Shown here piece after piece: positions 25,195 through 50,191 of a DNA stretch of 64,000 nucleotides. The stretch covers positions 1-64,000 of the forward strand of contig NZ_JAIKLE010000036.1 of NCBI RefSeq assembly GCF_022267315.1. Direction: 5' to 3'. The notes under the pieces were generated by a model. The model ran no database searches. It saw nothing but the letters and a program-made list of their open reading frames with translations, and had not been told where the DNA came from. Numbering within the stretch: the first letter of the stretch is position 1; every line of letters begins with the position of its first letter. The stretch comes from Maribellus maritimus (GTDB taxonomy: Bacteria > Bacteroidota > Bacteroidia > Bacteroidales > Prolixibacteraceae). The position numbers and the translations under genes are program-made.

Positions 25195-27141
25195 TCAGAC
25201 TGTCAATAAATAGTCAAATAAGCTATCGTTGGACGATAACGAGAGTTTCTTTTTTAGCCGGTATTTTGCTTTCTGTACGGTATCGGTTGAGACATATAAA
25301 AGAAGAGCAATCTCTTTGTTGCTTAAATTCATAATGAGGTATGAACAAAGCCGAAGTTCATTTTTTGTAAGGTCGGGATGTTTCTTTTTTAAGTTTCGAA
25401 AGTAATTTGGATGGACTTCCTCAAAGTACAGACTAAAATTATCCCAATCAGAATCGGGATCCATCTGTTTTTCTATATCCTTTCGTAATTTGTCTAGTGT
25501 TGCCGAACTACTATTTTGAAGTTTAAGCCTGTCGATGTTATCAAGAAATACACGTATGCTTTCGCTTTTTTTGATGGCATAGGCAGCAGCGGTGGTCAGT
25601 TCTCTGTTTTTGTGGTCGATTTCTTTTTGCATCGCCTTAATCTCATTCTGCCGGGTGAGCTCATTGGCTTCAAGTTCAGACTTTAGTAGTTGCTTTTCTG
25701 ATTCTTTTTGTTTGTTTTCGGCAAGTAAACGTTCATTTTGAAGCGCTTTTAGTTCCAACTGCATTTTGAACATATCTTCTTTCTGACGATGAATAAGCCT
25801 GTTCTTTTTATTGGTTTGAATTCCCTGCAGAATGAGAGAAACAAGTATCAAGGCAACCAAACCGAGTAAAACGATAACAATATTTTTGTTCTTTTGGTTT
25901 TTTTTGTTCAACTGGTCTTTGTATTCCAGTTTTTCAATCTTTTGTTTTTGATTTTCTATATCATTGAGAATTGTGAGGTCGGCTATATATTGCCGGTTTT
26001 TGTCGTTGGCAATACTGTCTTTGTATTTATTCGCTTCCATAAAATAGCTAAGTGCTTTTTTATAGTTGCTCCTATGTTGTTCCAGTTCCGACAACATATT
26101 ATAGCTTTTTAAAAGAGCAGCTTTATATCCAATACGTTTAGATATGGCAATCGCGTTCTGAAAGAAAATATTTGCACTGTCGTTTTGATGTTGGCTTAAG
26201 TGATACCATCCCAAATTGGTATAGGAGTTCACAATGTAGGTACTGTCGCCGGCTTGTTTTGCCTTTTTTAAGGCGGGAACAAACAAGTTATAAGCCTTAT
26301 CGTATTCATTTTGAAGCATTGCGATGTTTCCCAGGCTGTTGTAACAAATAGCCTTACCTAAAACAGAATTCAGCTGTTGGTTATATTCTAAGGATCTGTT
26401 ATGGTAAAATATCGCAGAATCATAATCGCCCAATAATCCGTACGTTTTACCAATATTGTGGTTATCAATTGCCATCCCCAGCAAACTGCCAAGCTGTTCT
26501 TCGTATTGGAGTGAGCTTTTGTAGTATTCGATTGCTGATTCATATTGTTCCAACATGCGGAAAAGACCGCCAATTCCTTCGTTGGATATGGCCATGCTTT
26601 TAAGCATGTATTCGTCGGTATTATTACTTTCCTGCGCTGTTTTCAATGCACGCATGTAGTATTCCAGGGCAGTTTTCACAGCCGACATTCGTCGGTACAC
26701 CACCCCCATCATATTTAAAGATAAGGCTTCGAGGTAATCATTTCTTGACTTCAAAGCCGCATCGTAAGCCTGTTGATGATATTGTATAGCTTTTGAATAA
26801 CTGCTATTGTTGAGTTTATTTTTACCCAACATGTTGAGTACGAATGATTCCGCTTCGGAATTTTTGTTGGCTTTGCTGTATTCCCAATATGTCAACAAAC
26901 GACTCGTATCTTTGATGATACTTTTTAAAAATTTGTCCGGATCATATATATTTATTGAATTGTTGATGACCCGGTTGTTCAGGCTATCAATCCAGTTATT
27001 ACCGTTCTTATTGTCTGCATTTGTTTTAATCTGTTCATTTCCCTGACCAGCATTTTTTTCCGGATTTTCAGGGTTTGCCTGGCTAAAGTAGCTTACTGTA
27101 AAACAGCAGAGAATCCAAAAAAATCTAAGTGTTAGCGTCAT
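25195..27141 (-). CDS. TPR-containing membrane protein with LuxR-type DNA-binding domain
   Basis: The 648-residue protein has a signal/anchor segment (1-21), seven or so tetratricopeptide repeats between about 90 and 390 (for example GKTYGLLGDYDSAIFYHNRSLEY), one membrane helix at 420-440, a long coiled coil (about 445-545) and a C-terminal helix-turn-helix of the LuxR type at about 585-645 (LTKNELRLCSYLIMNLSNKEIALLLYVSTDTVQKAKYRLKKKL). Periplasmic TPRs joined through the membrane to a cytoplasmic HTH is a Bacteroidota one-component sensor plan. The neighbouring fibre/T9SS operon with its unusual promoter repeats is the obvious candidate target, though this is not shown. Confidence 0.85.
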   Translation of the reverse strand: MTLTLRFFWILCCFTVSYFSQANPENPEKNAGQGNEQIKTNADNKNGNNWIDSLNNRVINNSINIYDPDKFLKSIIKDTSRLLTYWEYSKANKNSEAESFVLNMLGKNKLNNSSYSKAIQYHQQAYDAALKSRNDYLEALSLNMMGVVYRRMSAVKTALEYYMRALKTAQESNNTDEYMLKSMAISNEGIGGLFRMLEQYESAIEYYKSSLQYEEQLGSLLGMAIDNHNIGKTYGLLGDYDSAIFYHNRSLEYNQQLNSVLGKAICYNSLGNIAMLQNEYDKAYNLFVPALKKAKQAGDSTYIVNSYTNLGWYHLSQHQNDSANIFFQNAIAISKRIGYKAALLKSYNMLSELEQHRSNYKKALSYFMEANKYKDSIANDKNRQYIADLTILNDIENQKQKIEKLEYKDQLNKKNQKNKNIVIVLLGLVALILVSLILQGIQTNKKNRLIHRQKEDMFKMQLELKALQNERLLAENKQKESEKQLLKSELEANELTRQNEIKAMQKEIDHKNRELTTAAAYAIKKSESIRVFLDNIDRLKLQNSSSATLDKLRKDIEKQMDPDSDWDNFSLYFEEVHPNYFRNLKKKHPDLTKNELRLCSYLIMNLSNKEIALLLYVSTDTVQKAKYRLKKKLSLSSNDSLFDYLLTV

Positions 27142-29873: not shown

Positions 29874-32800
29874 TCAGCAATCTGTGCAGCAAACATCAGG
29901 TACTTTGGTTAGCCGGGATGTTCGCAAAATACGGTGATGTCCCAGTTCATCACTTACCGGGCTTGGTTTTTGCTGAACGTCAACAGCAGCGAATGATGCT
30001 GAACGTGCGTTAAACCTTTTTGTAAATTCACGACTGAATGTTGCCTTCTGTTCTTCGCTTAACAGGTTTGCTGTTGTTTGGGCAACCTGTGGCTGGTTTA
30101 ATCCTGAAATGTGTTCAAAGATGTTATTGATTTGTGGTAGTGTTTCAACCACAACCACACTTAGCGAAGCATCTTTGGGCAATCCAAAAATGGAAAGAAA
30201 CTGTGTAACTTCCTTATTTGTCCAGACTGTAGTTCCGTACTTCGTAGAGCTTTTATTTTTTCTGCTAAAATCAACAAGCTTAATGACATTGTTGACCGGC
30301 GCAACAGATGTTTGTCCTTTTTGTGTTTTTAAGGTTATTTTACTGAGTAACTGTAGTTCCTCCTTGGTATACTTTTGAAGGGCATTTTCTTCTTTTTTAT
30401 TTTCCACCTGAATTCTCCAGTCCAACGGGCGATCGTCCAGCAGAATGTTCCGGTAGTCGTTGTTGTCTGCCTGTTTTACCTGTGCGTACAACAATGCCCA
30501 TAATTCAGTTCGTGGCGGATCGGCAGTTACATTTTTACCTTTATGAACTGCGACTGCGTATGGTGCAGTTACCCAAAGTTTGTCCTTGTCGCGGTTGGGC
30601 ATACATGTAAGTGCCGGAGCCGGGTGTTGAATGCCCTGCGATTTTAATCTTCTGCCAAAACGCCCCTGGGCTGTTGTCCATACTTTTTCCGGTTCCTGAC
30701 CAGGATTGACTGCAGGCCGTTCAAAATGTCCAACCCTGAATTCATAGGTAAAGAATCCAAACATTTCATCGCTGTTTGCATGTAATCCCGGAGGTAAGGG
30801 CAGAATATAATGCTTATCGCTTGATGTACTTTTAACCATTGCTTGCATAGCACTCAATCCTGCCAGATCGTTGGATGATGAAGGAGAAATAATACGTATC
30901 AATTCCGGGTCAACGGGTAAAGGAGGCTCTTGCTGGCCAACAAAAAGCGAAGGATGATTATTGCTTAACAACTGGTCGGGTGAATTGACCAGAACCCGTG
31001 CAAAATAGGTGTCCTGAGGATCTTCTACCGGATCAGCAAATTCAATCCAGAGAAAACGTTTACGCGATTCAGAATTCTGATATTTTTCATCGCGCACATA
31101 AGGAGAAAGTGCAAAGCCGGCTGAAACTATTTTGGGAACCTGGGCCGGCGGAGTCGTAATTGGCAGGGTCATTTCCACAACTACTGGTTCATCCCGTTCT
31201 GCAGCATGATCTGCTTTAAATCTGGGTTCAAGCGTGTAAGCAACGTCAATGGTATCAGGAAACGAATTTGCTGCCTGCGGATCTTTCTTGGGTTCCACCG
31301 CGTCAATAAATACAATTTGCGTGGAATTTCGTTGCGGATTATCCAATGATTCAAAGGAGGCTGTCCGTATCATTTTTATACGTCCGATTTCAGCATCCTC
31401 TTCTTCGGGTTGATTATCGTGGGTAAAACCTTTTGTCCGTATAACTGCAAAACTATCTGTTTCAAGTGCATTCCACATCCAGTCCCTGTCTAATTCAAAA
31501 TTAATGCAGCAAACCCAGTGGTTAAATAAATCAGATTTTGATGCAAATGTAATCGACGATCCATCCGGTGCTAATGTGTGACGTATACGACTCGAACAAC
31601 CAAACACAACTCGTTTCCCTTTGGGTGCATTGAGAGTCAGGCCACTGCTTTCCAGATTCAGTTGATCCGCCAGTTGTTTCACATTGGTATTTTGAGTCAC
31701 ATTCTCACTTCCAAAAAACAAAGTAGTTAACCGGCCATCAAAAACAGTGGCAGTGTCCGGTCGCATATACAAGGCCTGTACATTCGGAACTCCCGGAGTA
31801 AGCGCCAGCAATCCGGTTTCATCAGTCGATGGTTTGTATAATTCCACGCTAAAGGGTTCCCCATATCTAACATCCATTGTTTTGTCTGCTGCATCAATGA
31901 CTCCGTAATATGCGCTGGTGTCGTTATCATCGGCTTTGTCTTCACAAACTGCACGAATTGTAAGACGAACGGTTCGGGCTGTAGGTAAAACCAGTTGAGG
32001 AAGATTATCAATATCATCCGTAAGGCCTAAATCCTGCACCAGGTTGATTTCAGCGCCCACATTTAATACTTTGTCGGGCCCTTCAATATCCTTGTATTCA
32101 ATAGGAATATTTAATGTAGCCTCATAATTATCATCGTTGCCATCGATATCCGGGAAAAATCGTTGTGTGGTATATAAATGTACATAATCATCTTTTCCGT
32201 TTACACTGTTCAACTTATCCAGTTTCAATGTTTCAATCTCAACAGTGATTTCCACCTGGTTAACATCAGGATCCGCAATTCCCAAACCGACCCTGTGTTC
32301 TGCATTGTGACTATGGTTGGCATTGTCGACATCCAGACTCATATTTGACTGGTTTAACAAACGCTGGATCGGGTCAGTGTATTTATCGGTATAAACAACA
32401 GCCGGATACCCAAGTTTGGGCCTTCTGATGTTTAATTCATTTAATTCCGAAGGACCGTCGGTGCCTATGACCGGATGCAACTCACCGGGTTGTGCCGTTG
32501 GAACGGCTTCAATTTCCTGTATTCGCGGCTGAATGGGAGCGATGTATCTTTTAAACAAACAAGTGGCAATATCAGATGGAGACTCATTCACCGGGTTCAG
32601 ATTAATCGCCGGAGTACCTCCGCTGAGATCCTGCATACGAACTCTGAACTGGTAAGTCCTTCCGTACCTAAGCTGAACACTAATTGGTCCCGGATTATAC
32701 ATCTGGTTGAGGTTGTTTTGTGCAGCTCCGGACACACCCGTTCCGGTAGTTACCGGATTTCCGTCTTTATCTGTTGCAGGTTGTCCTTCGGGGTCAGCAT

Positions 32801-34205
32801 CCAGATTTGGATTGGTGGTTTGATATACTGTGGCCGCGTCGTTATCAGGTAAAACCATACTATGTCCGTTCCAGTTGGCGAAATACATCGGAAGCCAGTA
32901 GGGCTGCATTACTCCTGTAACCTGCTCTGTGCCGTCCAACTGCTGGGGATAAACCTGGTAAGGCAATTCTCCTTCATAACTACCCAGTTGGATAAAATCA
33001 GTATTTAAGTTGGGATTTTTAGCTAATGTAAGCGGTTGTTTACTGTTGACAAGGTTTAATGATTCCCATGGATTTTCCGGGTTGCCGGCCTCTGCCATCT
33101 GGCGTACATCGATAACATAACCGTGTACTCCAATCGGGGCATCCAGCCTTTTTTCAGGATTTGCTACAGACGGATCAATGCTTAACTGACGCATATACCA
33201 GTTTAGAATTTCCACGTCGTTCCATCCCAGGTTAATTCCCGTGTCTTTTACCGGGTAGGAGCCGTCGGCTTCCTCAACCAAAGGATCGCGGTGTGGTGGT
33301 TGATGACAGTGTACAATTTTAGCAAATCCGTCATCAAACTCTGCCGTTTCAATAAACAGTTTGTCGTAATTTCCGTCGTGAACGTTTACAACCGGATACA
33401 GCAACGATGCAAATACATGTCGTGGCTCGCCCGGAGTTAAAGCCGGAATTCGGGCGGCATATCTTTTAATAAATGTATCATCAGCTGCCTGTTGAGGACT
33501 AAAAGAACTTCCCCCAGCCAGATCTATGTATAAAAAACCGCCGTCAGGGAAGGTATCCGTTTCAACGGGAATACTAGCTGAGTAGATAAATCCGGCTCCT
33601 CTGGCTAACAGGGGTTGTCTCAGAATGTGTGCAAATACTTTCCCCCAGCTTATTATATTACTGCTTCTTTTAAAACCTTCATAAAATTTGGCACCCTTTA
33701 CAGCACAATGGTACTGGTCACCGGTAAAGGCGTTTTTGTTTCCGACAGGTTTGTTTCCTGTAGCTCTAAGAAATGATTTAGGAATGTGTTTATATACACT
33801 AACCTGCGCCGGTCTTGCTTTTTGAAATTGTCGTTCAGCAGGAATATTTTGCAGGTTTATATTGGAGTTCACCATGCCGAGATTAAAAATTTGCAGGTGA
33901 TTTGCCATTGCTTCAAATATTTCCCGTGGGTTTCCGGGCGGCGTTGTTGTTAACTGAATCGCTTCGCTGAGCGGCTTGGGTTGGGGTAGAGGATTAACAC
34001 CAAAACCCTGTAATAACTGAGCTCCGAAAGAAAAGTTCGCATCGGCAAATGCTGCTGTAGCATCCGGAATCTGAGGCTCTTCCCCGACAATAATCGGGTT
34101 AAGCGGATTGTGGTCGCGCGGGATGACCACTATATTTATCTGAAGTTCATTCCCGTCAAAAAATTGCGGAAATGTCATTATTGATAATCTTTGATTTGGA
34201 TTCAT
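29874..34205 (-). CDS. Giant leaderless protein of unknown family (partner of the next gene)
   Basis: The 1443-residue product has no signal peptide, no membrane helix and no motif I recognise. It is dominated by beta-type stretches, with Pro/Asn/Asp-rich loops, and has several tracts of a structured-domain look (for example near 820-990 around GKRVVFGCSSRIRHTLAPDGSS, and near 1130-1240 around the FFTYEFRVGHFERP block). The last residues are cysteine-rich (VPDVCCTDC). It starts 11 bases after the 1820-residue gene ends, so the two are translated from one transcript. Base composition is visibly richer in G and C than the flanking genes. Cytoplasmic location, or release by a non-Sec route, is likely. 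Toxin, surface-layer or scaffold roles are possible, but none is supported. Confidence 0.75.
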   Translation of the reverse strand: MNPNQRLSIMTFPQFFDGNELQINIVVIPRDHNPLNPIIVGEEPQIPDATAAFADANFSFGAQLLQGFGVNPLPQPKPLSEAIQLTTTPPGNPREIFEAMANHLQIFNLGMVNSNINLQNIPAERQFQKARPAQVSVYKHIPKSFLRATGNKPVGNKNAFTGDQYHCAVKGAKFYEGFKRSSNIISWGKVFAHILRQPLLARGAGFIYSASIPVETDTFPDGGFLYIDLAGGSSFSPQQAADDTFIKRYAARIPALTPGEPRHVFASLLYPVVNVHDGNYDKLFIETAEFDDGFAKIVHCHQPPHRDPLVEEADGSYPVKDTGINLGWNDVEILNWYMRQLSIDPSVANPEKRLDAPIGVHGYVIDVRQMAEAGNPENPWESLNLVNSKQPLTLAKNPNLNTDFIQLGSYEGELPYQVYPQQLDGTEQVTGVMQPYWLPMYFANWNGHSMVLPDNDAATVYQTTNPNLDADPEGQPATDKDGNPVTTGTGVSGAAQNNLNQMYNPGPISVQLRYGRTYQFRVRMQDLSGGTPAINLNPVNESPSDIATCLFKRYIAPIQPRIQEIEAVPTAQPGELHPVIGTDGPSELNELNIRRPKLGYPAVVYTDKYTDPIQRLLNQSNMSLDVDNANHSHNAEHRVGLGIADPDVNQVEITVEIETLKLDKLNSVNGKDDYVHLYTTQRFFPDIDGNDDNYEATLNIPIEYKDIEGPDKVLNVGAEINLVQDLGLTDDIDNLPQLVLPTARTVRLTIRAVCEDKADDNDTSAYYGVIDAADKTMDVRYGEPFSVELYKPSTDETGLLALTPGVPNVQALYMRPDTATVFDGRLTTLFFGSENVTQNTNVKQLADQLNLESSGLTLNAPKGKRVVFGCSSRIRHTLAPDGSSITFASKSDLFNHWVCCINFELDRDWMWNALETDSFAVIRTKGFTHDNQPEEEDAEIGRIKMIRTASFESLDNPQRNSTQIVFIDAVEPKKDPQAANSFPDTIDVAYTLEPRFKADHAAERDEPVVVEMTLPITTPPAQVPKIVSAGFALSPYVRDEKYQNSESRKRFLWIEFADPVEDPQDTYFARVLVNSPDQLLSNNHPSLFVGQQEPPLPVDPELIRIISPSSSNDLAGLSAMQAMVKSTSSDKHYILPLPPGLHANSDEMFGFFTYEFRVGHFERPAVNPGQEPEKVWTTAQGRFGRRLKSQGIQHPAPALTCMPNRDKDKLWVTAPYAVAVHKGKNVTADPPRTELWALLYAQVKQADNNDYRNILLDDRPLDWRIQVENKKEENALQKYTKEELQLLSKITLKTQKGQTSVAPVNNVIKLVDFSRKNKSSTKYGTTVWTNKEVTQFLSIFGLPKDASLSVVVVETLPQINNIFEHISGLNQPQVAQTTANLLSEEQKATFSREFTKRFNARSASFAAVDVQQKPSPVSDELGHHRILRTSRLTKVPDVCCTDC

Positions 34206-34216
34206 AATTGTTGTTT

Positions 34217-37200
34217 TTAGGCTATTTGACGTTGCTCCTGCCAGGATTCTGTGAAACTAATGTTAATAATAAACGCAATACTGATGTCCAGTCCGAAAGT
34301 AACCTGGCACTGCAGATCGGTACGGGAAGCGCCGCCACCCAGTGCTTTTTTTGAATAGGTACCTTTGGCTTCAATCCGTATGGTGATGGAAACAATACCA
34401 CCTAAAATTTCTGCATGCCCCTCAAACAGCATAAAAGCTGAAACCTGGACGATGCCCGAGGCAATAAAAATTTCGGCTCCAACCACAAACAGTATACTTA
34501 CATTACCTGCAACCGGAAGACCCACTACGATTTGTGCGCCAAATCCAAACTTCATCCGAAGTGAGGGGCCAATTTTGGTATCGGCCGCAATATCAACATT
34601 TGCCTGACCGATGGCATAAACCGTAGCTGCCGAAACCGAAACACACATTACCGATAAACGGGCATAAAACCCTAAAACTCCGCCTGCACTGGGCAACAGT
34701 TCATTGGCATCGGTAGTTACTTTTAGCGCTGCATTAAAGTAGGCTCCAATTTTTAATCCTGCCTCAAGTTTGAAAGGTGTATTGGGATCGTTGTATACAG
34801 CATCGGGAACAGGAAAACGTATAACAGGTATTTCTTTTGAGGCTTCAAATTTGTATTCCCAGCTACCGGCTTTATTACTCATGGCCAGTTTTAATCCGTT
34901 CTGAACAGCCTCGCCGCAATCACCCTCCTGAAGACTCTGTAAAATTTCCAGGAGGTCAACCAATGGATCCAGTTCGGGAGCAAATTCCAAATCCGGTTTC
35001 GGGTAAGTTGCTTCTTTCCCGTTTTCCGAATCCCAGTTACCCCGGATTGTCATTAGTCTTTTTATCCCTGCCAGGTCAATCACCAGACCAATATTGTTCA
35101 TTTTACCTTTCCAGCTCTCGGCTACAGAGTTGATATCAAAATCCAACTCTCCTGATTGTTCAACATTTCCGTTTTTATCTTTTTTGTCGTATTCAATATA
35201 AATTCTGAAGTTTCCGTCACCAACGTCAATTAATTCAAACTCGGTGGGTAAATCAAACGCGTCTTCCGGATTATGCAATAACTGAAGTCCCTGTTGTTTG
35301 ACATTGTTAATGGTATCCTGGATATCCATTAATTCAAAAACGTCTTTCCCAAGATCTTGCAGATTGCTGATGTTAAACGGGAAATTTCCTCCCTTTTTCA
35401 TCAGGATGGCTTCTCCCAAAACATCTCCGGCAAAATTTTCTGCTTCACCAATATTCGGGAATATTCCTTTGGTGTTGACAATACGAAAAGCGTCAACAAA
35501 AAGAGGAGGCGTTTTACTGAGTAATTTTTTTGTATTCTTTTTAAAGGAAGGTGTCAGGAATAACGCTTTCTGGGTGTCGGTACTTTGTAAAAGTCCGTAA
35601 TTTATGGTATTGCTCACAGGTTGGCGAAGTAGCTCTGCTGGTTCAGCAATTCGAGTTAAGACTTTTGTGACTGGTGTGGCCGGATCAATTTTAACCGTAT
35701 TTCCATTTTTTACAATTTTCCCTTCTCGAATCACAGGAATACTTAAATTTTCCGGTACCGGGCTGACATCTCCGTTTGCTCTTTCATGTTTCACCATGCT
35801 CCAGCTTCCTTCTTTGGGTAACAATACATTCCCTCTTCCTGCCACACAGAATGTCGGGTCTGTACCATTGCCTGCAAAAGAATTATTAAAATCAAAACGA
35901 CTTAAACGCATCTTTTGAGTGCTGTCCACCAGGTTGACTTCACAATCGATAGAGCCGCCAATAGTACCCTGACGGGTTATCAGGAGACGCAAAGCAGTAT
36001 TATTAAGCGGAAATCCCTTCGGGCCAAGCTGAACAAAACCCAAAATTCTTTTGGAGGGTACAATTTTTTTATCACCGTCGGAGGTCGGTTTTGTGACCAT
36101 TCCCGACAGAACACCTTCCACTTCAACATCGGCATCAAAATATACAGGTTGAAGTTCTATGTCGTAATTTTTGGGTGTATTTATTTCAACGCCAAGCTGG
36201 TCAACCGATTTATCGAATGTCACATTTTCGTTAAAAGGCTCTACTTCATTGGTTTCAATAATGTTGCTTACGTTATATAATGCTTTTACAAGCCCGGGAT
36301 GAATTTCAAATTCGGCAAATTGCTCTTTCGAAATAAGTTGCGGCTCCGGATTTTCCGGTGTGCCTCCCGGGAAATTGGGGTTGTTTTCATAGGTAAAATA
36401 TCTGAAATCAAATTTACCGTCGCTTTCAGCTCTCCATCCGCTGTCGAAACGATATACATAACCACTGTTTACACGGAAAAGCGTGATGGTTCGCACCACT
36501 TTTATGGCCCAGGGATACAATATACTTTTTACCTGAATTATCTCGTGAGAACAACGACCAACAAACACATCAAATTTGGCCTGACTTGTTTCGGCAATGG
36601 CTGCTTTGGTATTCAGCCAGTTGCTAAACATACTAGCGCCGTAGCCGCTTAAATCCATCCTTGTTACGGGAACGCCACGTTGTTTAAACAATTCAAACGG
36701 ATAATTGGTGTCGTAAAAAAACTCGCGGTTAAAAATGCTGGTGACACTGCCACCAAGTGTACTGTTTCCGGTTTCGTTTCCTGCAAAATCAAGAATATTA
36801 TTGATTTGAACCGTCGTTCCCATAAACATTTTGCTGTCGCCTTCACGCAGCGGTATTCCGGCATCCATTTTTAGTTGAAGACCGGAATGTATCTCGTTAT
36901 CAAAGGATACCTTTAATTTATTTAAGTCGCCGCCATCCCGAGGGACATTGTTGTACACATATTTTTCGCTTAAAAGAGCGACTGATTTCATTCCAAAAGG
37001 AAGGGTAAAAAAAGAAAAGGCTTTAAAATCACTTTCTGTATCACGCTTGTCAACTAAAAAACTGGTTACCGGCAAAGGTGCCAGAGGTACTTTGTCAGCG
37101 CTGTTGTTCAAAATACGGGTTGGTCCGCCATCGTTTGGATAGTAGTTAAAACCACCCGCAGGATCGCCCGGAACAGGGCCGTCAGGTGGTGGCGCCGGTG

Positions 37201-39679
37201 GAGAAAGATTAAACACAGGTTCCCATGATATTTGTGGTACAGTGAAAGCTTTCACATTTGCCCCGGCACTTACAACATCCATTCCCTCAACCTGAACAGG
37301 GAAAAAGCTGGATACCGCTTCGCCGGTAGCGTTTGTACCCGTAGTTACCCTAAAATCTCTTCGCATAAGCAGGTCGAAACTGATTCCAAATAAATCAGCG
37401 TTGGTACTTACATCCAGCAATGCAAACAAATCACGCCGGTACCGAAACGTATCTTTATCCCATTCTTCCTCGTAATCGGGTAGCCTCTTGGGTAAAGCTG
37501 CAGCAGATTCCGATGTTGTTGCATCTGTTTCAGTCAAACCCCTGTCGGTGGTCACATTTTTAAACGTGGAGGTAAGTTTGCGTGTCCCGCTCAGTGTGTT
37601 GGATAAATTAAGTCCGGAAAGCCGGGACACAGGTGTGTCAGTTTTTGAAATGATACCGGAAACCTTAACAGCTGTAATATTGGTATTCCCAACGGGTGTA
37701 ACAGGAGATTCCGGTTCGGGATTTGAAGGCTCTTCTGTTTTGGGTGGATTCAGAGAGATATCTCCAAACTGGTTGTTAAGAGAAGCAAAGTGAAAAGAAA
37801 CAAAAACGTCATCCATTTTATTTTCATCAGATGACACAGACCAGGCTGTGCGACAAACAAGCCAGGCGTTTATCTGCTGGTTCCCTGAAACTCCCCCCGT
37901 TATGCCTTTGCTTGTCCCTCGTATTTGTCGTTGAAGCACTCCCAGGTTAGCCGCGTAAGGATCGGGTAACGTTGGGATATAGGCCAGAAGCCCGAATGTG
38001 AGAAAAAGGAATCCTTTTTCAACTTTGTCATAATCTTTATTCATGTTTCCAAAAAGCAAACAACCATTGGGTTGTGTTACTTTAAACAATGCATTGGTTA
38101 ATGCCAGCGCCATTTCTTCGGGAACAACAGGATCCTGATTGTTTATTTGCGCATCATCAAGTATAAGATTGTTATCGTACAAATAGACCAGTTTGTTACT
38201 TGTACCGGCCGCGATGATCAACAGCGAATCCAGTGAACGGACCAGCGGCGGCTCTCCATTTACCTTCACCGGACGATCAATCCTAAAGTCGGCATTGGAA
38301 TAGGTCATTAGTAATTCATTGCCGTTACCATTACTTACATAAAAAAATGGTGCACTGTCAGAAAAGCTGAGATTTACCGAAGTTCCTGTTTGACTTGAAT
38401 TTTCTTTCCATAGCTTTAAGAGCTGGCTGGCATGCGGATTTCCTACGGCGAGATCAGCAACCAAAATTTGACCCGGGCCAACCAAAAAGCCGGGGGCATT
38501 TAACGCAAAACTGCCTCCTTTTAAGCCCGCCCATTTATTAAAAAGTCCTTGCTTGCACCGCACAAACATTTCACCAATACCGGATGCTGCTGTTGGTTGA
38601 GAGGTGTCAATTGCAGCCACTGGCAGAACCCACCCGCTTTTTTGAATTGCAGCCTTTTTATTTAGGTCTAAAAAATGAAAATCGGATTGATTTTGTTTGA
38701 TGGTAATATTTTGTCCCGAGGGTTTAAAAGGAAAAAATATACGCTGCATATTTGTATCGTAAACCGTTTGCTGATTGGCAATCCACTCAAATTTCATTTT
38801 TTGTCCGTAAAGACTCCATGAAGCATTCCCTACCTTGTCAATAATTCTTCCGTTTCCGGAGAAATGAAACTGAAGTGTTTCGGGCAATTGCAGCTGGGCA
38901 TTTCTTGCATCTTTTCCATAAGGACTGGCAGCGTCTGCATCTGTATCCTGTGGCTGATCCAAATTCAACAAAACATTGACATTTGTACTGGAGGCAATGG
39001 TAAGTTTATTGTTGATGGTTTGAGGGGCTTTGCTTAAAGTAATTGTTCCGCCGGAAATGGTCAGACCTGCGTAAGTTCCTGCCGGAGCATTGGGAGCTAA
39101 AAATTTTGTATTGATCCAGATGCTGCCTTTAACGAGAGAATATGTCCGGGTAAGACTAACCCGTATCGGAATGTTTGGGCGGGCTGTCAGCCTTGGGTTT
39201 TGTTTTATTTTAAATAAAAGAACAGGTTCGGCCACTCCTTTCATATACAAAGTGACAAGTTTTTCAATCGGGTAAAAATCATACCAGAGCTGACGGCCAT
39301 CGGGGCCTGTTAATGGCCCTATACTGTGATCAACCCTGGATCCCGCAGCCCAGTCCGCGACTGAATTGTATAACAACTGCTCCCTCACGGGAACTTCTCT
39401 GCGGAAAACTTTGTAACTGGCTTCATTCTTGGTTTTTGTCCGGGTCTTAATGATGGCGCTGATTGATTTTTTCTGAATATCTGAAATCGTGTCATCGGAG
39501 AATAAATCGGACTTTTCAATCGAGAATTCTTTTTGTCGCGGTATGGATTGATCTTTCTCAATCACCGATTTCGACAACGATGTTTTTAGCTGATTTAATT
39601 TTTTTTGATCTTCTGCACTTTCAATTTTTAAATGCCCAATAAGCCCTTTCAGGGTTGTGGAAATTTGTTGGGTTTCCAT
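34217..39679 (-). CDS. Giant leaderless protein of unknown family with Gly/Val-rich hydrophobic C-terminus
   Basis: The 1820-residue product begins with a charged helical segment (METQQISTTLKGLIGHLKIES...), not a signal peptide. The middle (about 60-1500) is a long series of beta-type domains without a recognised motif. The last 170 residues change character: alternating small and hydrophobic residues (VDIAADTKIGPSLRMKFGFGAQIVVGLP, then ISIFIASGIVQVSAF-type runs) as in a membrane-inserting or amyloid-like beta sheet, ending SFTESWQEQRQIA. Upstream on the same strand, 149 bases away, is a PAS-LuxR regulator. Length, leaderless start and pairing with another giant protein are unusual. I know no named family that fits. 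Confidence 0.75.
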   Translation of the reverse strand: METQQISTTLKGLIGHLKIESAEDQKKLNQLKTSLSKSVIEKDQSIPRQKEFSIEKSDLFSDDTISDIQKKSISAIIKTRTKTKNEASYKVFRREVPVREQLLYNSVADWAAGSRVDHSIGPLTGPDGRQLWYDFYPIEKLVTLYMKGVAEPVLLFKIKQNPRLTARPNIPIRVSLTRTYSLVKGSIWINTKFLAPNAPAGTYAGLTISGGTITLSKAPQTINNKLTIASSTNVNVLLNLDQPQDTDADAASPYGKDARNAQLQLPETLQFHFSGNGRIIDKVGNASWSLYGQKMKFEWIANQQTVYDTNMQRIFFPFKPSGQNITIKQNQSDFHFLDLNKKAAIQKSGWVLPVAAIDTSQPTAASGIGEMFVRCKQGLFNKWAGLKGGSFALNAPGFLVGPGQILVADLAVGNPHASQLLKLWKENSSQTGTSVNLSFSDSAPFFYVSNGNGNELLMTYSNADFRIDRPVKVNGEPPLVRSLDSLLIIAAGTSNKLVYLYDNNLILDDAQINNQDPVVPEEMALALTNALFKVTQPNGCLLFGNMNKDYDKVEKGFLFLTFGLLAYIPTLPDPYAANLGVLQRQIRGTSKGITGGVSGNQQINAWLVCRTAWSVSSDENKMDDVFVSFHFASLNNQFGDISLNPPKTEEPSNPEPESPVTPVGNTNITAVKVSGIISKTDTPVSRLSGLNLSNTLSGTRKLTSTFKNVTTDRGLTETDATTSESAAALPKRLPDYEEEWDKDTFRYRRDLFALLDVSTNADLFGISFDLLMRRDFRVTTGTNATGEAVSSFFPVQVEGMDVVSAGANVKAFTVPQISWEPVFNLSPPAPPPDGPVPGDPAGGFNYYPNDGGPTRILNNSADKVPLAPLPVTSFLVDKRDTESDFKAFSFFTLPFGMKSVALLSEKYVYNNVPRDGGDLNKLKVSFDNEIHSGLQLKMDAGIPLREGDSKMFMGTTVQINNILDFAGNETGNSTLGGSVTSIFNREFFYDTNYPFELFKQRGVPVTRMDLSGYGASMFSNWLNTKAAIAETSQAKFDVFVGRCSHEIIQVKSILYPWAIKVVRTITLFRVNSGYVYRFDSGWRAESDGKFDFRYFTYENNPNFPGGTPENPEPQLISKEQFAEFEIHPGLVKALYNVSNIIETNEVEPFNENVTFDKSVDQLGVEINTPKNYDIELQPVYFDADVEVEGVLSGMVTKPTSDGDKKIVPSKRILGFVQLGPKGFPLNNTALRLLITRQGTIGGSIDCEVNLVDSTQKMRLSRFDFNNSFAGNGTDPTFCVAGRGNVLLPKEGSWSMVKHERANGDVSPVPENLSIPVIREGKIVKNGNTVKIDPATPVTKVLTRIAEPAELLRQPVSNTINYGLLQSTDTQKALFLTPSFKKNTKKLLSKTPPLFVDAFRIVNTKGIFPNIGEAENFAGDVLGEAILMKKGGNFPFNISNLQDLGKDVFELMDIQDTINNVKQQGLQLLHNPEDAFDLPTEFELIDVGDGNFRIYIEYDKKDKNGNVEQSGELDFDINSVAESWKGKMNNIGLVIDLAGIKRLMTIRGNWDSENGKEATYPKPDLEFAPELDPLVDLLEILQSLQEGDCGEAVQNGLKLAMSNKAGSWEYKFEASKEIPVIRFPVPDAVYNDPNTPFKLEAGLKIGAYFNAALKVTTDANELLPSAGGVLGFYARLSVMCVSVSAATVYAIGQANVDIAADTKIGPSLRMKFGFGAQIVVGLPVAGNVSILFVVGAEIFIASGIVQVSAFMLFEGHAEILGGIVSITIRIEAKGTYSKKALGGGASRTDLQCQVTFGLDISIAFIINISFTESWQEQRQIA

Positions 39680-39828
39680 ACGTCGTGAATTTAATGGTTG
39701 CTTGTATATGAGTGTAAATCCCCAAATCGTCCTTCTTTTGCAGATTTACACTATACAAGTTACGATTGGTAATCGTAAAAAGCAATTCCCATTTTTGGGT
39801 ATTTTCCGAAAGGTTGGATAAATAAAAA

Positions 39829-40518
39829 CTACATCAATATCGATTTTGATGCTTCTTTGATTAACTGTGCTGTATTTTTAACATTAAATTTTTCAATCAG
39901 ATTTTTTCTGTGGGCAATCGCGGTGTGGTTGCTTATGTATAGTTCATCTGCAATTTGTTTTGAAGAAAAACCTTCCGATATAAGCAATAGCACTTCTTTT
40001 TCCCTTTTTGAAATAGCAATATCGTTGTTGGCTAAAGGAGCTTGTTTTTTTATTCCTAAAAAATATTCGATTTGTTCCTTTTGAGAAATGTCATGAAGGT
40101 AATTGAGAACGATGCGGTTTTTTTTGATTTGGTGAAAAGTTAGCTCGTGACTGACCCAGTGCCACTTGTTGTAAACATCTTTTATGTGATAGGAAAAGGA
40201 GAGTGCTTTGGGGCGTATTTCTGAAATCACTTTCTGATTCCATGAGTCAATTTTGTTCTTTATATTTCCAACTTCAGATGTGCTTATTTTACTATACCAG
40301 TATTCCCATCCGCCCCTGATGATCTCTTTCGGTTTATATCCCAATATATTTTGAAATGAATCATTACCATAAAGAAATTTATTTTTTTCTAAATCAAATA
40401 CACTTATCATCAGGTTATGTTCTTCTTTGCAACACAAAGAAATTTGTTTTAGAAAAGTTTTTATAAGGCCATTGTTTTTTGCCTTTATGCTGGTTGTAGG
40501 TTTCTGATTTGCTGACAT
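39829..40518 (-). CDS. PAS-domain LuxR-family transcriptional regulator
   Basis: From ATG 40518 (MSANQKPTTS) the protein is 229 residues; the slightly longer frame would start with TTG and is less likely. Residues about 35-145 form a PAS fold (FLYGNDSFQNILGYKPKEI, then WVSHELTFHQIKKNRIVLNYLHDIS). Residues about 165-229 are a LuxR-type helix-turn-helix (ISKREKEVLLLISEGFSSKQIADELYISNHTAIAHRKNLIEKF). There is no receiver domain, so it senses a small ligand or redox state directly. It lies immediately upstream of the two giant genes on the same strand, and is the likely local regulator of them. Confidence 0.85.
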   Translation of the reverse strand: MSANQKPTTSIKAKNNGLIKTFLKQISLCCKEEHNLMISVFDLEKNKFLYGNDSFQNILGYKPKEIIRGGWEYWYSKISTSEVGNIKNKIDSWNQKVISEIRPKALSFSYHIKDVYNKWHWVSHELTFHQIKKNRIVLNYLHDISQKEQIEYFLGIKKQAPLANNDIAISKREKEVLLLISEGFSSKQIADELYISNHTAIAHRKNLIEKFNVKNTAQLIKEASKSILM

Positions 40519-41068
40519 GACAAACAAGTCTTTATAATAAAAGGTAAACCTTCATTTTTTTAAAAAGTTCATATTGGGCGTTTTTCTATTTAAGTTTTTT
40601 TGTTGTTTTAAAAATATCCTCTTTTTGCAACTTAGGTTTTTTATAGGAGGCGGTTTAAAATTGTTTAACCGGTGATATTAAAAAATCATTAGGAGACGAA
40701 ATGATTGTTTTTAGGCGGAAGTACTTCATGCCCCCCCAGGGATTTTATTCATTAAAGTTTTCTTTGATGCTCTATCTCAGCTTACCTCTTAAATATGCCT
40801 GCACTGTTGATTTTTTGAAAATAAGACAGGGGCCTGTAATTTTACAGCACATATCGTTGGTTTTTATACATCGTTTCAGGAGCTGGAAGACAGAAGGCAG
40901 ATATTAGGTATTTATCATTTCTCTCTTCTGTCTTCCGAGCCAATATGGAATGTTTTTTTGAATTTCATTTTTGATATTTAAACCGATTTATTTTAATACA
41001 TAGTAATTCAGGTTGGTTCTCTATGTTGCGAACTAAAAAAACTTTGCTATTTTTGGCAAAAAGGTCAA
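40519..41068. other. Intergenic region with a 12-bp inverted repeat
   Basis: No supported gene is seen between divergent regulators. GGAAGACAGAAG (40885-40896) and CTTCTGTCTTCC (40925-40936) form a perfect 12-bp stem around a 28-base loop. A weak frame at 40701-40907 has an AGGAGA-like site upstream but no recognisable protein. The promoter of the MarR-like gene is at the right end. Confidence 0.5.
41026..41055 (+). promoter_or_regulatory. Promoter of the MarR/GbsR-like regulator gene
   Basis: TTG at 41026-41028, 19 bases, then TATTTTTG at 41048-41055 match the Bacteroidota -33/-7 consensus (TTG and TAnnTTTG) exactly, including spacing. The ATG at 41069 follows closely, so the leader is short. 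Confidence 0.75.
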
Positions 41069-42863: not shown

Positions 42864-43568
42864 ATGAATGGTTATTTTATCAAATTTGGAAACTGGATTT
42901 TCCGCTACCGAAACATTATCTTTCCCCTGTTTTATGCAGCGCTTTTTGTTCCTTCACAACAAATATTTCCAAACAGTACAGCTTTAGGGCTCGGTGCTTT
43001 TATTATAGCCCTTGGTATAGCAGTCAGGTGTGTCACCATCGGGCTTGAATATATAATACGCGGCGGACGTCACGGGAAAATTCATGCAAACAATCTTGTA
43101 ACAGGTGGAATTTATTCCATTTGCCGTAATCCGATGTATGTGGGGAATATCCTTTTGATCCTTGGGTTTGGAGTATTTGCAAATTCATTGCTTTTTTTGC
43201 TCCTGTTCTTTCCTCTTTTTCTGATAATATACAGAGCCATAATAAAAGCCGAAGAATCTTTTTTATATGAAAAATTTGGACAGGAATATTTGGATTATAC
43301 AGCAAAAGTCAAATCATTAATCCCTGACTTAAGAAAGATAAATTCAGCTTTTAAGGGATATACTTTTAACTGGAAAAGAGTTCTTTTAAGAGAATATAAT
43401 TCGCTTTATCTTTATATCTCAGGAATTGAATTGCTATTGTTTTACAATAAAGTTATTGAATTTTCAACGCTATTAATCCTTTTTGTAATTACTACCGTAT
43501 TATATGTTTTGATGAAAATGCTCAAAAAAACAAGATTTAGTGATTATGCAAAAAATACCGAAAAATAA
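42864..43568 (+). CDS. Isoprenylcysteine-carboxyl/phospholipid methyltransferase-like membrane protein
   Basis: The 234-residue integral membrane protein has about six hydrophobic segments. The central part carries the ICMT/PEMT signature: ITIG-like region before GGRHGKIHANNLVTGGIYSICRNPMYVGNILLILGF, and then EESFLYEKFGQEYLDYTAKVKSLIPD. Family members transfer a methyl group from SAM to lipid or lipid-like acceptors in the membrane. The C-terminal 60 residues add two more hydrophobic segments, a little longer than usual. It is 14 bases after the CmoA-like gene and overlaps the patatin gene by 23 bases, so all three are probably translated together. Confidence 0.82.
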   Translation: MNGYFIKFGNWIFRYRNIIFPLFYAALFVPSQQIFPNSTALGLGAFIIALGIAVRCVTIGLEYIIRGGRHGKIHANNLVTGGIYSICRNPMYVGNILLILGFGVFANSLLFLLLFFPLFLIIYRAIIKAEESFLYEKFGQEYLDYTAKVKSLIPDLRKINSAFKGYTFNWKRVLLREYNSLYLYISGIELLLFYNKVIEFSTLLILFVITTVLYVLMKMLKKTRFSDYAKNTEK

Positions 43569-45804
43569 AGGCTTAAAAAATACAAGCTTGGTGCCCGAAA
43601 AAATTGGTATTTTTATTTTATTATGTTTGATTGCAGGTTCGGGTGTATTTGCCGCAGCTGAGCAGCAGACAAAACCTGCAGCAGCTGAAGGCCGCCCCAA
43701 AGTGGCGGTGGTTTTGAGTGGAGGCGGTGCAAAAGGCTTTGCTCATATCGGGGTTTTAAAAGTACTGGAAAAAGAGGGAATCCCGATTGACATTATTGTT
43801 GGTACAAGTATGGGCAGCTTGGTAGGAGGTATTTATTCGCTCGGATACAACGCTTCTCAAATTGAAAACCTTGTAAAATCACTAAACTGGGAAATGACAA
43901 TCACAGATGAGGTTCCCCGGTTATTTCAGTCTAAATATCAACAGGAATTAAAACAGCGTTATTTTCTTTCTTTGCCTATTTCCGACAAAAAGGAAATCAA
44001 ACTCCCCAGGGGATTAATGAAAGGGCAAAATGTTCTGAATATATTTTGTGGTCTGGCAGGCGAGGTACCGGCTCATGCCGATTTTTCGCAATTCCCTGTT
44101 TCGTTTGCCTGCGTGGCAGCTGACCTTGAAACCGGTGACGAAGTAGTAATTGACAAAGGCTTTTTGCCAACAGCTATGTATTCGAGTATGGCCATCCCAA
44201 TTGCTTTTCAACCATCGGAAAGAGACGGGCACTTGTTGGTTGACGGAGGAATTGTAAATAATTTTCCAACTGATGTCGCAAAAAGAATGGGCGCGGATAT
44301 CATCATTGGAGTTGATATTCGAAACGATTATTACGGACAGGATGAGCTAAAATCAATAACCAGCGTTTTAAATCAACTAATCAGTTTTTTCGATAAAGAC
44401 AAAGATGCAGTAAATAAGTCTTATTGTGACGTTATTATTAGGCCCGATATAACAGGATATTCCGTTTCCAGTTTTAGTAAGAGGGCAGCCGATACACTGA
44501 TTTTCAGAGGTGAACAAGCGGCTCTTGATGTCGTTTCACAATTGCGAAAAATAAAAACGGAACATAATCTTCAGCCCCGGCAACCACTCCGTAATTTTGT
44601 AAAACCGGAAGACTGGTATATTACCAAAGTCAACTACAACGGAAGTTATTATTTGAGCAACGATTTTATAGCCAATACATTTGGATTGGAACTTCCCGGG
44701 AATTATTCGGCAGACGACATTAAAAACGGAATCGACAGAATCTATGGTCTGGGAGGTTTTAAAAAAGTATATTACTATCTGGAAAACAATGACGAGGGAA
44801 AAACTTTAATCATCAATATAGAGTCTGAAAAAGTATTTACCCAGAATTTTGGATTTAAAGTAAATACAACCGATGCAGCAGCGATTTTAATCAATACAAC
44901 TCAACGGAACTATAGAAATATTTTTGGTTTGTTTTCTATAAACGGTGAGCTTTCTGTAAACCCGGGATTGGATATTACCATTGAAACAAACAGGACTAAA
45001 TTTCCTACCGCAGGACTGAATTTTAACGGAAAATACCAAAATATCAATATTTACGAAGACGCAGACAAACTGTTTAAGACAAGCCTGTTTTATACATCGG
45101 CAGGAATATATTTTTACCAGCCGTTTTTTAAGCGGTATTATTTTGGAGCCGGTATTCGTGAGGAATACTTTAACGGTGATTTATTCACTAAAGAAACTAG
45201 TTTTCAATGGGAGGAAGATAAAATAAATATGTTTTTAACCAATGCATATGTCTATGTTTCTTATGATAATATGGATGATTTTTATTTTCCAACAAAAGGA
45301 ACCTCGATGAAGACCAGATTCTCTCTGCTCGGAGATCTGGAGGATAAAAAAGAGATTTGTCCGGCATTGTATTTTGAAATGAAGAATATAATTCCTGCCT
45401 GGCAGGAAACTGCCTGGCTTTTTGATATATACGCAAGAGCTTTGTTAAATACCAATTATCCGGATGTTAAAATGACTCTGATTGGGGGAGAGGCCTATAC
45501 ACAATACTTTGATTACCATCTTCCTTTTATCGGGTTGCCCGCGGTAAACGTCGGACAGGAGTATGTTTATATTGGTATGCTTGGTTACCGGTTTCACATG
45601 TCGGATTCGCAGTATATGACTTTGTTGGCAAATGGATTGTTACAGGATTCCGACTGGTTGTTAGGTGAAGATTCCGAATTTATTTTCGGGGGAGGTGTCA
45701 GGTATTCGCTAAAAACAATGCTTGGCCCCCTGGACGCAACTTTAGGCTTTTCCAATGTAGTGGATAAACCGACATTTGCCGCCAGTTTTGGGTATTGGTT
45801 TTAA
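43546..45804 (+). CDS. Patatin-like phospholipase with C-terminal outer-membrane barrel (type Vd autotransporter)
   Basis: From ATG 43546 the 752-residue protein starts with a signal segment (residues about 20-37), then a patatin domain (50-325): oxyanion loop GGGAKG (59-64), catalytic Ser88 in GTSMG, and Asp233 in DGG of VDGGIVNNFP. A POTRA-like domain (ITKVNYNGSYYLSNDFIANTFGLELPG...) at about 355-440 and a 16-strand-like barrel to the end (last residue Phe of FGYWF) follow. The PlpD architecture delivers the lipase outward through its own barrel. Cognate esters are phospholipids or lipopolysaccharide-type acyl chains. It shares 23 bases with the ICMT gene, so lipid methylation and lipid hydrolysis are coupled here. 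Confidence 0.9.
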   Translation: MQKIPKNKGLKNTSLVPEKIGIFILLCLIAGSGVFAAAEQQTKPAAAEGRPKVAVVLSGGGAKGFAHIGVLKVLEKEGIPIDIIVGTSMGSLVGGIYSLGYNASQIENLVKSLNWEMTITDEVPRLFQSKYQQELKQRYFLSLPISDKKEIKLPRGLMKGQNVLNIFCGLAGEVPAHADFSQFPVSFACVAADLETGDEVVIDKGFLPTAMYSSMAIPIAFQPSERDGHLLVDGGIVNNFPTDVAKRMGADIIIGVDIRNDYYGQDELKSITSVLNQLISFFDKDKDAVNKSYCDVIIRPDITGYSVSSFSKRAADTLIFRGEQAALDVVSQLRKIKTEHNLQPRQPLRNFVKPEDWYITKVNYNGSYYLSNDFIANTFGLELPGNYSADDIKNGIDRIYGLGGFKKVYYYLENNDEGKTLIINIESEKVFTQNFGFKVNTTDAAAILINTTQRNYRNIFGLFSINGELSVNPGLDITIETNRTKFPTAGLNFNGKYQNINIYEDADKLFKTSLFYTSAGIYFYQPFFKRYYFGAGIREEYFNGDLFTKETSFQWEEDKINMFLTNAYVYVSYDNMDDFYFPTKGTSMKTRFSLLGDLEDKKEICPALYFEMKNIIPAWQETAWLFDIYARALLNTNYPDVKMTLIGGEAYTQYFDYHLPFIGLPAVNVGQEYVYIGMLGYRFHMSDSQYMTLLANGLLQDSDWLLGEDSEFIFGGGVRYSLKTMLGPLDATLGFSNVVDKPTFAASFGYWF

Positions 45805-46005: not shown

Positions 46006-47079
46006 ATGAAATTCAGAAACATTTATCTGGTACTTGGCCTTGCAATAATCATATTGTCAGGATGTAAAAATTCATCAGAAGAAGCGCCTCAGGCCGAAAC
46101 AATTAAAAAGGTTAAAGTAGAAACAATTACGGATGACGTTGTTCAGAACACAATGACCCTTAACGGTAAGATAAAGGAAAAGAGTTTGACCTCTCTTTCT
46201 TTTCGTGTAGGGGGACCGTTAAAAAAGTTGAATGTAAAACAAGGTGATTATGTTCGCACCGGGCAAGTTGTTGCGGAAATAGATGACCGCGATTACCAGC
46301 TCCAGGTTGAAACTTCCAAAGCTCAGTTTGAGCAGGTTGAAGGAGAGTATAAGCGTTACAAACAGTTGGTAGGACAGAAAAAGATTCCCGAAAACACTTT
46401 TGAAAAAATTAAATCAGGTTACCTGATGGCAAAAACGGCTTATGAAAATGCACAAAATCAGCTGAATGATACAAAATTGAAAGCTCCCTTTTCTGGTTTT
46501 ATTTACGAAAAATTTGTGGAAAATTATCAAACAGTAGGTGCAGGCATACCCATCGTTTCTATCATTGATAATTCTCATCTGGAGGTTGTCGCCTCGGTTG
46601 CAGAAAGCCAGCTCAACCGGATAAAAAGTGACAAGAAAAGTTTTTTGGATGTTGAAAATGCAGGAATAGAAAAACTTCCGGTGCAGCTGTTTAGTGTGAG
46701 TGAAAAAGCAATGCAGGACGGTTTGTATGAAGTTAAGTTTTCTTTTGAAAACAAAAAAGATTTCAAAGTAGCACCGGGAATGACCGCAGAAGTAACGATT
46801 TATTGCCAGTCGGGAGAAAATCAATTGTCGGTTGCGTCAACAGCTATTTTTCATGAAAAAACAAGTACATATGTTTGGATATACAATTCATCCACCAGCC
46901 AGGTTGAAAAACGTCAGGTTAAAATATCACTGGATGGATCAAATGGGAGAGTAAACATATCATCCGGATTAAACAACGGAGAGAAGGTTGTTACAGCAGG
47001 TGTGCACTACCTGGTGGAAGGGCAAAAAGTAAAACCGCTCTCTACTCCTTCTGAAACTAATGTTGGAGGGCTGCTATAA
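46006..47079 (+). CDS. RND efflux periplasmic adaptor lipoprotein
   Basis: The 357-residue protein is a HlyD/AcrA-type adaptor. It has a lipoprotein signal with lipobox LSGC (Cys20), a biotinyl-lipoyl-like half (VGGPLKKLNVKQGDYVRTGQVVAEIDDRDYQLQ), an alpha hairpin near 100-140, and a beta-barrel and membrane-proximal domain to the end. It links the inner-membrane pump to the outer-membrane channel. The pump gene begins within its stop codon (one-base overlap), so the three pump genes form one operon. Confidence 0.93.
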   Translation: MKFRNIYLVLGLAIIILSGCKNSSEEAPQAETIKKVKVETITDDVVQNTMTLNGKIKEKSLTSLSFRVGGPLKKLNVKQGDYVRTGQVVAEIDDRDYQLQVETSKAQFEQVEGEYKRYKQLVGQKKIPENTFEKIKSGYLMAKTAYENAQNQLNDTKLKAPFSGFIYEKFVENYQTVGAGIPIVSIIDNSHLEVVASVAESQLNRIKSDKKSFLDVENAGIEKLPVQLFSVSEKAMQDGLYEVKFSFENKKDFKVAPGMTAEVTIYCQSGENQLSVASTAIFHEKTSTYVWIYNSSTSQVEKRQVKISLDGSNGRVNISSGLNNGEKVVTAGVHYLVEGQKVKPLSTPSETNVGGLL

Positions 47080-50000: not shown

Positions 50001-50129
50001 AATTCTACAGCGGTGGTAATTATGTTTGGTCTGGCAGTTGGTTCTATAATCACGTTGGTTGTTGTTCCTGTTTTATATACCGTATTGTATCGGGTTGACG
50101 GACGTCGTTTGAAAAAAGCCGGGAAATAA
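47079..50129 (+). CDS. RND multidrug-type efflux pump, inner-membrane subunit
   Basis: The 1016-residue protein has the RND plan: N-terminal helix, periplasmic porter/docking loop (about 30-330), six helices (about 335-540), second loop and last six helices (about 845-1010). In helix 4 the normal pair of acidic residues reads GMLVDNAIV, with Asn at the second place, an arrangement seen in several Bacteroidota RND groups; the lysine in the last part is present (MMIKNAVVLLDE). The drive is proton motive force, with efflux of amphiphilic compounds such as bile salts, antibiotics or lipids. It starts one base into the stop of the adaptor and ends one base into the start of the channel region. Confidence 0.93.
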   Translation: MFERLLNQKAMISTILFAVLVGGFIAYNNIGKLEDAEIPIKAATVVTVYPGATAHEVELEVTDVLEKAIQKLENIDEITSVSRPGLSMITINIKARVKTPQLPQLWDHLRRKVNDAKGSLPTGAMDPIVNDDFADVYGILYAVTADGYNHEELTKYTEYIERELLGVNGVRRSQVFGEHTQAIDVVFSPEKLAGLSVNPMYIAAAIQNETSIINPGSVDVGKESVRVGVGQKITSIEEIENLLIQVPRGGNFRLGDIATIEKSYLEPQNEALYYNNKPGLTLGLSNESGINVVKLGARLDEKLAEIQEGLPAGIEINQVYYQPDRVDDAVKNFMMNLAMSVGIVIIVLMFAMGLRSGLLISSGLVFTIMGTLIVMLGIGLPLHRVTLAAIILAMGMLVDNAIVVADGILVDLKSGMDRSKAFVHTAKRTALPLLGATAVAILAFLPLRMSPNEAGEFLSSLFTVLIISLSLSWVFAMIQTPFNAKYFYRKERPKGEHAEAYDSKFYRIFGRFLKWGIRNKYAFAVASFAILIFAFWSFRFVKVDFMSKIDYDQFYIEYYLPQGADIKAVEKDVKQIQEEILKIDGVHSVTTSAGRPPARYLLMRHMATGGSNYGDLIVETDNTERVAEIIPEIEEYLSENYPDAFFRVEEYGAAFADADIEAQFTGPDSAVLKDLANQAKKIFLDEPTAVNITDNWKNQTKKLVPEYSVERAQPLGLTRSDMGNSILVATNGMPIGAVYEGDKMLPIVLRTNTKLGDNVEQLMNIPVWGQQSRASVPLSQIADTLKVTWDYELINRLDNQRSIKAQCDAAKGYTAADVQAKFQEKIEAIELPDGYEMKWEGATARSGEANEALFMFLPLAVGLMAIIIIGLFNNLKQPIIIFLIVPFAFIGIVLGLVTTRVFLTFAGIIGALGLIGMMIKNAVVLLDEINQNIRTGKDRLTATIDAALSRLRPVMMASLTTILGMAPLLSDSMFNSTAVVIMFGLAVGSIITLVVVPVLYTVLYRVDGRRLKKAGK

Positions 50130-50191
50130 TGATGAAGAGTAAAATATGTCCGTTGAAAAAAGGTGATAAATACAATTTTAGGAAGAAGAAA

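Follow-up and report, generated by a model that had tools for sequence, protein, structure and literature searches.

A 64,000-nucleotide stretch of Maribellus maritimus DNA (contig NZ_JAIKLE010000036.1, positions 1 to 64,000; the window in what follows) carries two adjacent genes, B and A, which form a conserved two-gene module. Hundreds of homologues are spread over at least nine phyla, and these two very large proteins are strongly conserved, without a model in the libraries searched. Because the pair spans many phyla, lacks a match to any named family and is apparently under an adjacent regulator, it looks like an undescribed two-part cellular system. The features of the pair are the following.

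34217..39679, minus strand: gene B, 1820 residues, giant and apparently leaderless, first of the pair; intact open reading frame (ORF)
29874..34205, minus strand: gene A, 1443 residues, giant and apparently leaderless, second of the pair; intact ORF
34206..34216, minus strand: gap between B and A, 11 bp (median in relatives 23.5 bp, 58 loci)
34220..34891, minus strand: residues 1597-1820 of B, a predicted amphipathic, beta-barrel-like domain at the C-terminus
29892..29948, minus strand: nearly invariant tail at the C-terminus of A (LGxxRxxRxSxLxxxPxxC, residues 1420-1438), kept in 161 of 166 sequences

ORF analysis agrees with an earlier annotation made from the letters and translations of this DNA (the sequence-only reading), which had placed proteins of these sizes 11 bp apart, with a regulator upstream on the same strand.

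Conservation and Distribution of the Pair

At E ≤ 1e-3, 816 homologues of A were found among 7997 candidates scored, and 736 of B among 7988; the named entries among the best 120 matches listed for each protein were all hypothetical or uncharacterized proteins. Within these best 120 matches, A from Bacteroidota still shares 53-58% identity with A from Cyanobacteria, Chloroflexota or Ignavibacteriae, a degree of conservation from which it follows that the protein must have a specific function; farther copies are ≈ 36% identical (locus L073 versus the window). A scan with one genome per species yielded 72 distinct loci carrying B, and in 65 of them B is followed by A on one strand (58 recognized by ORF calls, seven by six-frame search), while the other seven stop at a contig edge 0-100 bp past the B match. 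Order and strand are constant in 58 of 58 loci, and the gap does not exceed 60 bp in 47 of these. The pair thus recurs across phyla, and its absence from other genomes, which the sequence-only reading had named as a possible objection to a new system, was not what the scan found. Split or frameshifted copies occur in at least four of the 72 (L014, L034, L042 and L073). Most of the loci come from diderms, and monoderms also carry the pair.

Trees calculated with FastTree from 51 A and 51 B sequences, namely those of the window and of 50 loci where both ORFs are long, fragments being excluded, cover nine phyla: Bacteroidota, Chlorobiota, Ignavibacteriota, Cyanobacteriota, Chloroflexota, Acidobacteriota, Pseudomonadota, Actinomycetota and Thermodesulfobacteriota. 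The distances in the two trees correlate with a Pearson coefficient of 0.946, a value reached in none of 1000 permutations. In the A tree, the starred branches require the Bacteroidota label to change at least four times, and the copy of the cyanobacterium Nodosilinea sits among 13 Bacteroidota in a fully supported group. This pattern is compatible with movement of the pair between phyla, though it is no proof of it.

At shorter range the distribution is patchy. B was present in two of 37 genomes searched from the genus of the window; the second of these (95% identity) is a 7.8 Mb single-contig genome, so that the pair is chromosomal there. In a sample of 395 genomes from the phylum, the A profile matched 12 and B matched 11, with both in ten (some fragmentary); in two of the 12, G119 and G336, the match was weak, partial and to a sister family, and these were left out of the count for A, and the eleventh B-positive genome holds only a fragment with a stop. 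When recent acquisition within the genus was examined through two flanking genes, orthologue-like matches to these were confined to G031 and a scattering of relatives. No neighbor of at least 80 residues recurs beside the pair, apart from the PAS-LuxR regulator of one sub-lineage, genes syntenic at the species level in Cyclobacterium, and members of broad families; a Pfam scan of 138 of 140 neighbors (at least 110 residues; two were left out of the alignment) revealed no shared partner beyond GerE/PAS among the 25 families listed out of 253. A plasmid search with B returned three records, all of them large and typed as non-mobilizable; in each, the B-like ORF is followed by another giant ORF. 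Phage records searched with B as the only query gave no match, and no close relatives of B or A were found in the viral contigs scanned.

Searches for Known Families

Neither protein has a match in Pfam (at E ≤ 5), NCBIfam or PADLOC, the best E value in sequence searches of the PDB was no better than 0.12, and PHROGs gave no match for A and matches for B only at E > 0.2. The sequence-only reading, which had recognized no motif in either chain, is borne out by these searches, and a strong match to a named family, which it had regarded as the alternative to an undescribed system, did not emerge for A or B. A Pfam scan of 31 distant members gave only single-member matches, at E 0.036 or worse. 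With regard to particular classes of proteins, no Rhs, Tc or toxin domains appeared in A or B in Pfam at E ≤ 5, and no PADLOC family for anti-phage defense was matched by the A and B of the window or by the Streptomyces pair. Homology between A and B was not detected, and no paper on the pair was found among open-access papers.

When 16 distant A sequences were used as queries, 478 matches were obtained among 7987 candidates. One of the homologues, P0241, bears the automatic UniRef name "Baseplate protein J-like". An identity as phage tail or contractile injection component is not supported: P0241 and five others had no PHROGs match, and no PHROGs model backs the name.

Predicted Structure, Export Signals, and Termini

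AlphaFold2 models of A and B are rich in beta structure, as the sequence-only reading had described the chains. A is modeled as a string of beta-sandwich domains that are immunoglobulin (Ig)- or fibronectin type III (FN3)-like, the FN3-like ones at background Z, and in this respect it resembles fibronectin type III, alpha-2-macroglobulin and complement multidomain proteins. For the C-terminal domain of B, a porin-like amphipathic barrel is predicted, with a beta-barrel fold in the model. In contrast to outer-membrane porins such as CymA and OmpG, B has no evident signal peptide and no sequence match to them; its putative barrel is fused to ≈ 1600 further residues, is co-encoded with A, and occurs in monoderms. 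Judged by its sequence, B fails to display a defining trait of classical porins, an evident export signal. A porin-like barrel that lacks an evident signal, and whose pattern is repeated in Streptomyces, would represent an unusual use of the fold.

The search for leaders relied on a crude hydropathy measure rather than on SignalP, namely a Kyte-Doolittle mean of at least 1.8 over 15 residues within the first 60 residues of full-length sequences. This threshold was passed by two of 165 A and none of 163 B sequences (medians 0.98 and 0.74; maxima 1.95 and 1.63, respectively), whereas two window proteins with leader-like starts, taken as controls, scored 2.61 and 1.73, such that the threshold misses one of them. 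By this crude test, the earlier assertion that both proteins lack a signal peptide is supported. Two further features pointed out earlier, a hydrophobic C-terminus in B and a Cys-rich one in A, are both real and both recur in relatives; homologues of B from Streptomyces and Mycobacterium share its C-terminal pattern. Outer-membrane proteins typically end in an aromatic residue, and the last residues of B are QEQRQIA, with no aromatic terminus.

The PAS-LuxR Regulator and a Candidate Operator-Promoter

The region upstream of B contains the following features.

39829..40518, minus strand: PAS-LuxR (GerE) regulator gene, a partner specific to one sub-lineage; the ORF spans 39829-40527, with ATG at 40518
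39783..39802, minus strand: dyad ATACCCAAAAATGGGAATTG, conserved; candidate regulator site, its 3' TTG being a candidate -33 box
39756..39762, minus strand: TAACTTG, candidate -7 box, 20 nt 3' of the dyad
39711..39752, no strand assigned: inverted repeat between promoter and B, z -4.0; not reckoned part of the system

The GerE domain of the regulator scores 59.6 bits in Pfam (cut-off 23.5), and its PAS match lies marginally below the cut-off (22.5 versus 22.6 bits). Between this gene and B lie 149 bp, in which ATACCCAAAAATGGGAATTG (39802-39783, minus strand) is followed after exactly 20 nt by TAACTTG. Upstream of B in the relatives one finds the dyad AATCCCC..GGGGATTG or a close version, TTG at the -33 place, a spacing of 20 nt (21 in L004), and TAnnTT, while most bases around dyad and box vary among the 12 sequences compared, of which those from Cyclobacterium are closely related to each other. 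NarL-type heptamer dyads have a 7-2-7 spacing. Judged by eye, each dyad half agrees at six of seven positions with TACYYMT, the NarL heptamer consensus (PMC4886647). The Bacteroides promoter consensus is given as TTTG near -33 and TAnnTTTG at -7, and for Flavobacterium johnsoniae the -7 box alone was confirmed (PMC7366714). The regulator is akin to NarL/FixJ-type GerE proteins in its GerE domain and in the likeness of each dyad half to the heptamer, but differs from them by a PAS-like sensor in place of the receiver and by a putative operator that merges with the -33 box of a promoter of the Bacteroidota type.

The upstream region could be read in 54 loci; the site is present in 10 of the 11 with a window-like PAS-LuxR and in none of the 43 without one (Fisher p 5e-10, the loci being related and hence not independent). 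In L034 the regulator lies downstream of A, and the site is still present. A regular expression for the site, run over 1.84 Mb of DNA, matched the sites upstream of B plus L024:19761 and L034:24516, which do not precede B. In whole genomes, the fixed-spacing pattern occurred once each in G000, G031, Cyclobacterium lianum and G006, twice in Maribacter, and had no match in G003, in G008 or in the genome that carries L018; the pattern written backwards, used as control, was absent from all eight. Within the 7.3 Mb genome of the window the dyad-promoter pattern was found once, and a single operator in the genome would offer a direct handle on the gene controlling the pair.

Since a candidate promoter lies upstream of B, the earlier proposal of one transcript comprising regulator, B and A is not supported: the 149 bp gap holds a conserved candidate operator-promoter. 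It is concluded from the sequence that the B-A module has a putative promoter of its own, which the PAS-LuxR protein probably controls. The further idea of a dedicated regulator holds for the sub-lineage of the window, where site and regulator are linked, but not for the module in general, as 43 of the 54 loci have no window-like PAS-LuxR gene.

In Maribacter halichondriae, the second dyad-promoter (L129:15519) precedes genes for a tetratricopeptide repeat (TPR)-like protein, a NarL-type response regulator and a PAS-LuxR protein. The hairpin upstream of B was excluded from the system because, judged by eye, the sister species at 95% identity (L103) does not preserve it, and an Rfam scan of the window at gathering scores returned no match.

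Proposed Function and Alternative Readings

The reading preferred here, at a probability of roughly 0.4, is that of an obligate two-subunit assembly that engages lipid or another hydrophobe, is probably intracellular and stands under PAS-LuxR control, its biochemical function being inferred. B-A would be a self-contained, horizontally spread module whose giant leaderless products act as an obligate complex. A may provide an extended scaffold, built from Ig/FN3-like and other domains, whose fixed C-terminal tail would serve in docking, and B a body with a C-terminal amphipathic beta-barrel that would contact lipid or another hydrophobic partner. Inside the cell, the complex might form a particle that holds lipid or another hydrophobe, or else an assembly associated with a membrane; an intracellular site of action is suggested by the lack of an evident export signal, the monoderm carriers, and the fact that the pair is conserved rather than diversifying. 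In the lineage of the window, the PAS-LuxR protein would sense a signal, bind the dyad at about -40, and activate, rather than repress, the B-A promoter. Phrased more broadly, as an undescribed, cross-phylum, horizontally transmitted machine of two giants, with a porin-like barrel used in the cytoplasm (or freed by lysis) to hold or cross lipid and a PAS-LuxR switch, the proposal comes a little short of even odds. Two observations weigh against the regulatory part of this picture. In L018 the regulator is present and the dyad is degenerate, an exception to the operator rule, and in G006, a member of the genus without the pair, the dyad-promoter (L128:6553) precedes a TonB-dependent-receptor-like cluster, so that this type of operator is not exclusive to the B-A module.

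The strongest rival, unlikely as it appears, is a pore-forming or membrane-translocating, toxin-like complex of two components released by lysis, in which the FN3-like chain of A binds the target and the barrel of B inserts. The lack of evident leaders, the porin-like amphipathic barrel, the FN3-like domains (at background Z), the patchy distribution and the dedicated regulator would all suit such a device; yet no toxin domain and no Pfam or PADLOC match was found, conservation across phyla is high, and retention of the A tail in 161 of 166 sequences argues against a variable, toxin-type effector end. Nor does an immunity-like neighbor of at least 80 residues recur, smaller immunity proteins not having been looked for. 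The two-component toxin offered by the sequence-only reading is thereby weakened. Less likely is an exported envelope or surface structure, another of its options, with B as outer-membrane barrel reached by an unrecognized export route and A as exposed chain: the predicted folds of both proteins and the majority of diderm loci speak for it, and against it stand the lack of an evident export signal (two of 165 A sequences pass the crude threshold), the Streptomyces and Mycobacterium homologues with the same C-terminal pattern, and the non-aromatic end of B. A classical route to the surface is made less likely by the want of any evident export signal and by the monoderm copies.

Improbable, finally, is the notion that B-A represents a remote branch or variant of the DUF6603 (PF20248) giant-protein operons, a kinship of B that was suspected and tested with one, four and 19 DUF6603 sequences. 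DUF6603 loci likewise hold tandem giant ORFs and a strand-rich C-terminal region, the C-terminal strand segment of B aligned in register with one and four sequences (1.6% and 9% probability), and DUF6603, defined by a Pfam match above 27 bits, is present in three of 16 pair-bearing genomes versus none of 14 control genomes. On the other hand, neither A nor B matches DUF6603 at E ≤ 5, a genome-wide scan found none (its controls also being silent), and not one of the 395 sampled genomes contains the pair and DUF6603 together. The 19-sequence profile aligned to a different region of the chain at 5% probability, and the kinship was dropped because a reversed control outscored it at 21%. There is no significant sequence relation, and the two kinds of operon differ in content and in the number of giants.

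Sister Giants and Other Genes of the Window

The DUF6603 loci L099-L102 carry extra giant ORFs beside the DUF6603 gene, at least three of ≈ 900-1780 residues in L099-L101; in L099, no Pfam match was obtained for two of these giants or for an N-terminal part of a third. Sister pairs of giant ORFs were seen at L097:3178-12740 (1749 + 1434 residues) and L098:7424-15750 (1467 + 1321 residues). By hhalign, A has a distant relative in the second ORF of L097 (E 6.6e-6 over 170 columns), whereas the first, upstream giant of that locus gave no alignment with B and matches coiled-coil-rich models beneath their cut-offs.

The G+C content of A (44%) and B (43%) does exceed the mean of 38.7% in the 31 other window ORFs of at least 200 residues, as remarked in the sequence-only reading, but some of these reach 43%, and G+C at third codon positions (0.385 and 0.390 for A and B; mean 0.356, standard deviation 0.031) is only about one standard deviation higher, which does not support a foreign origin. 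Near the pair and not part of it, positions 25195-27141 encode a TPR-like protein of 648 residues with a C-terminal GerE match of 26.2 bits (cut-off 23.5). The protein encoded at 43540-45804 has a hydrophobic N-terminal leader, and from its motifs we take it to be a patatin-like phospholipase with a fused outer-membrane barrel at the C-terminus. The genes at 46006-51595 presumably form a resistance-nodulation-division (RND) efflux trio of periplasmic adaptor, RND pump and TolC-like protein.
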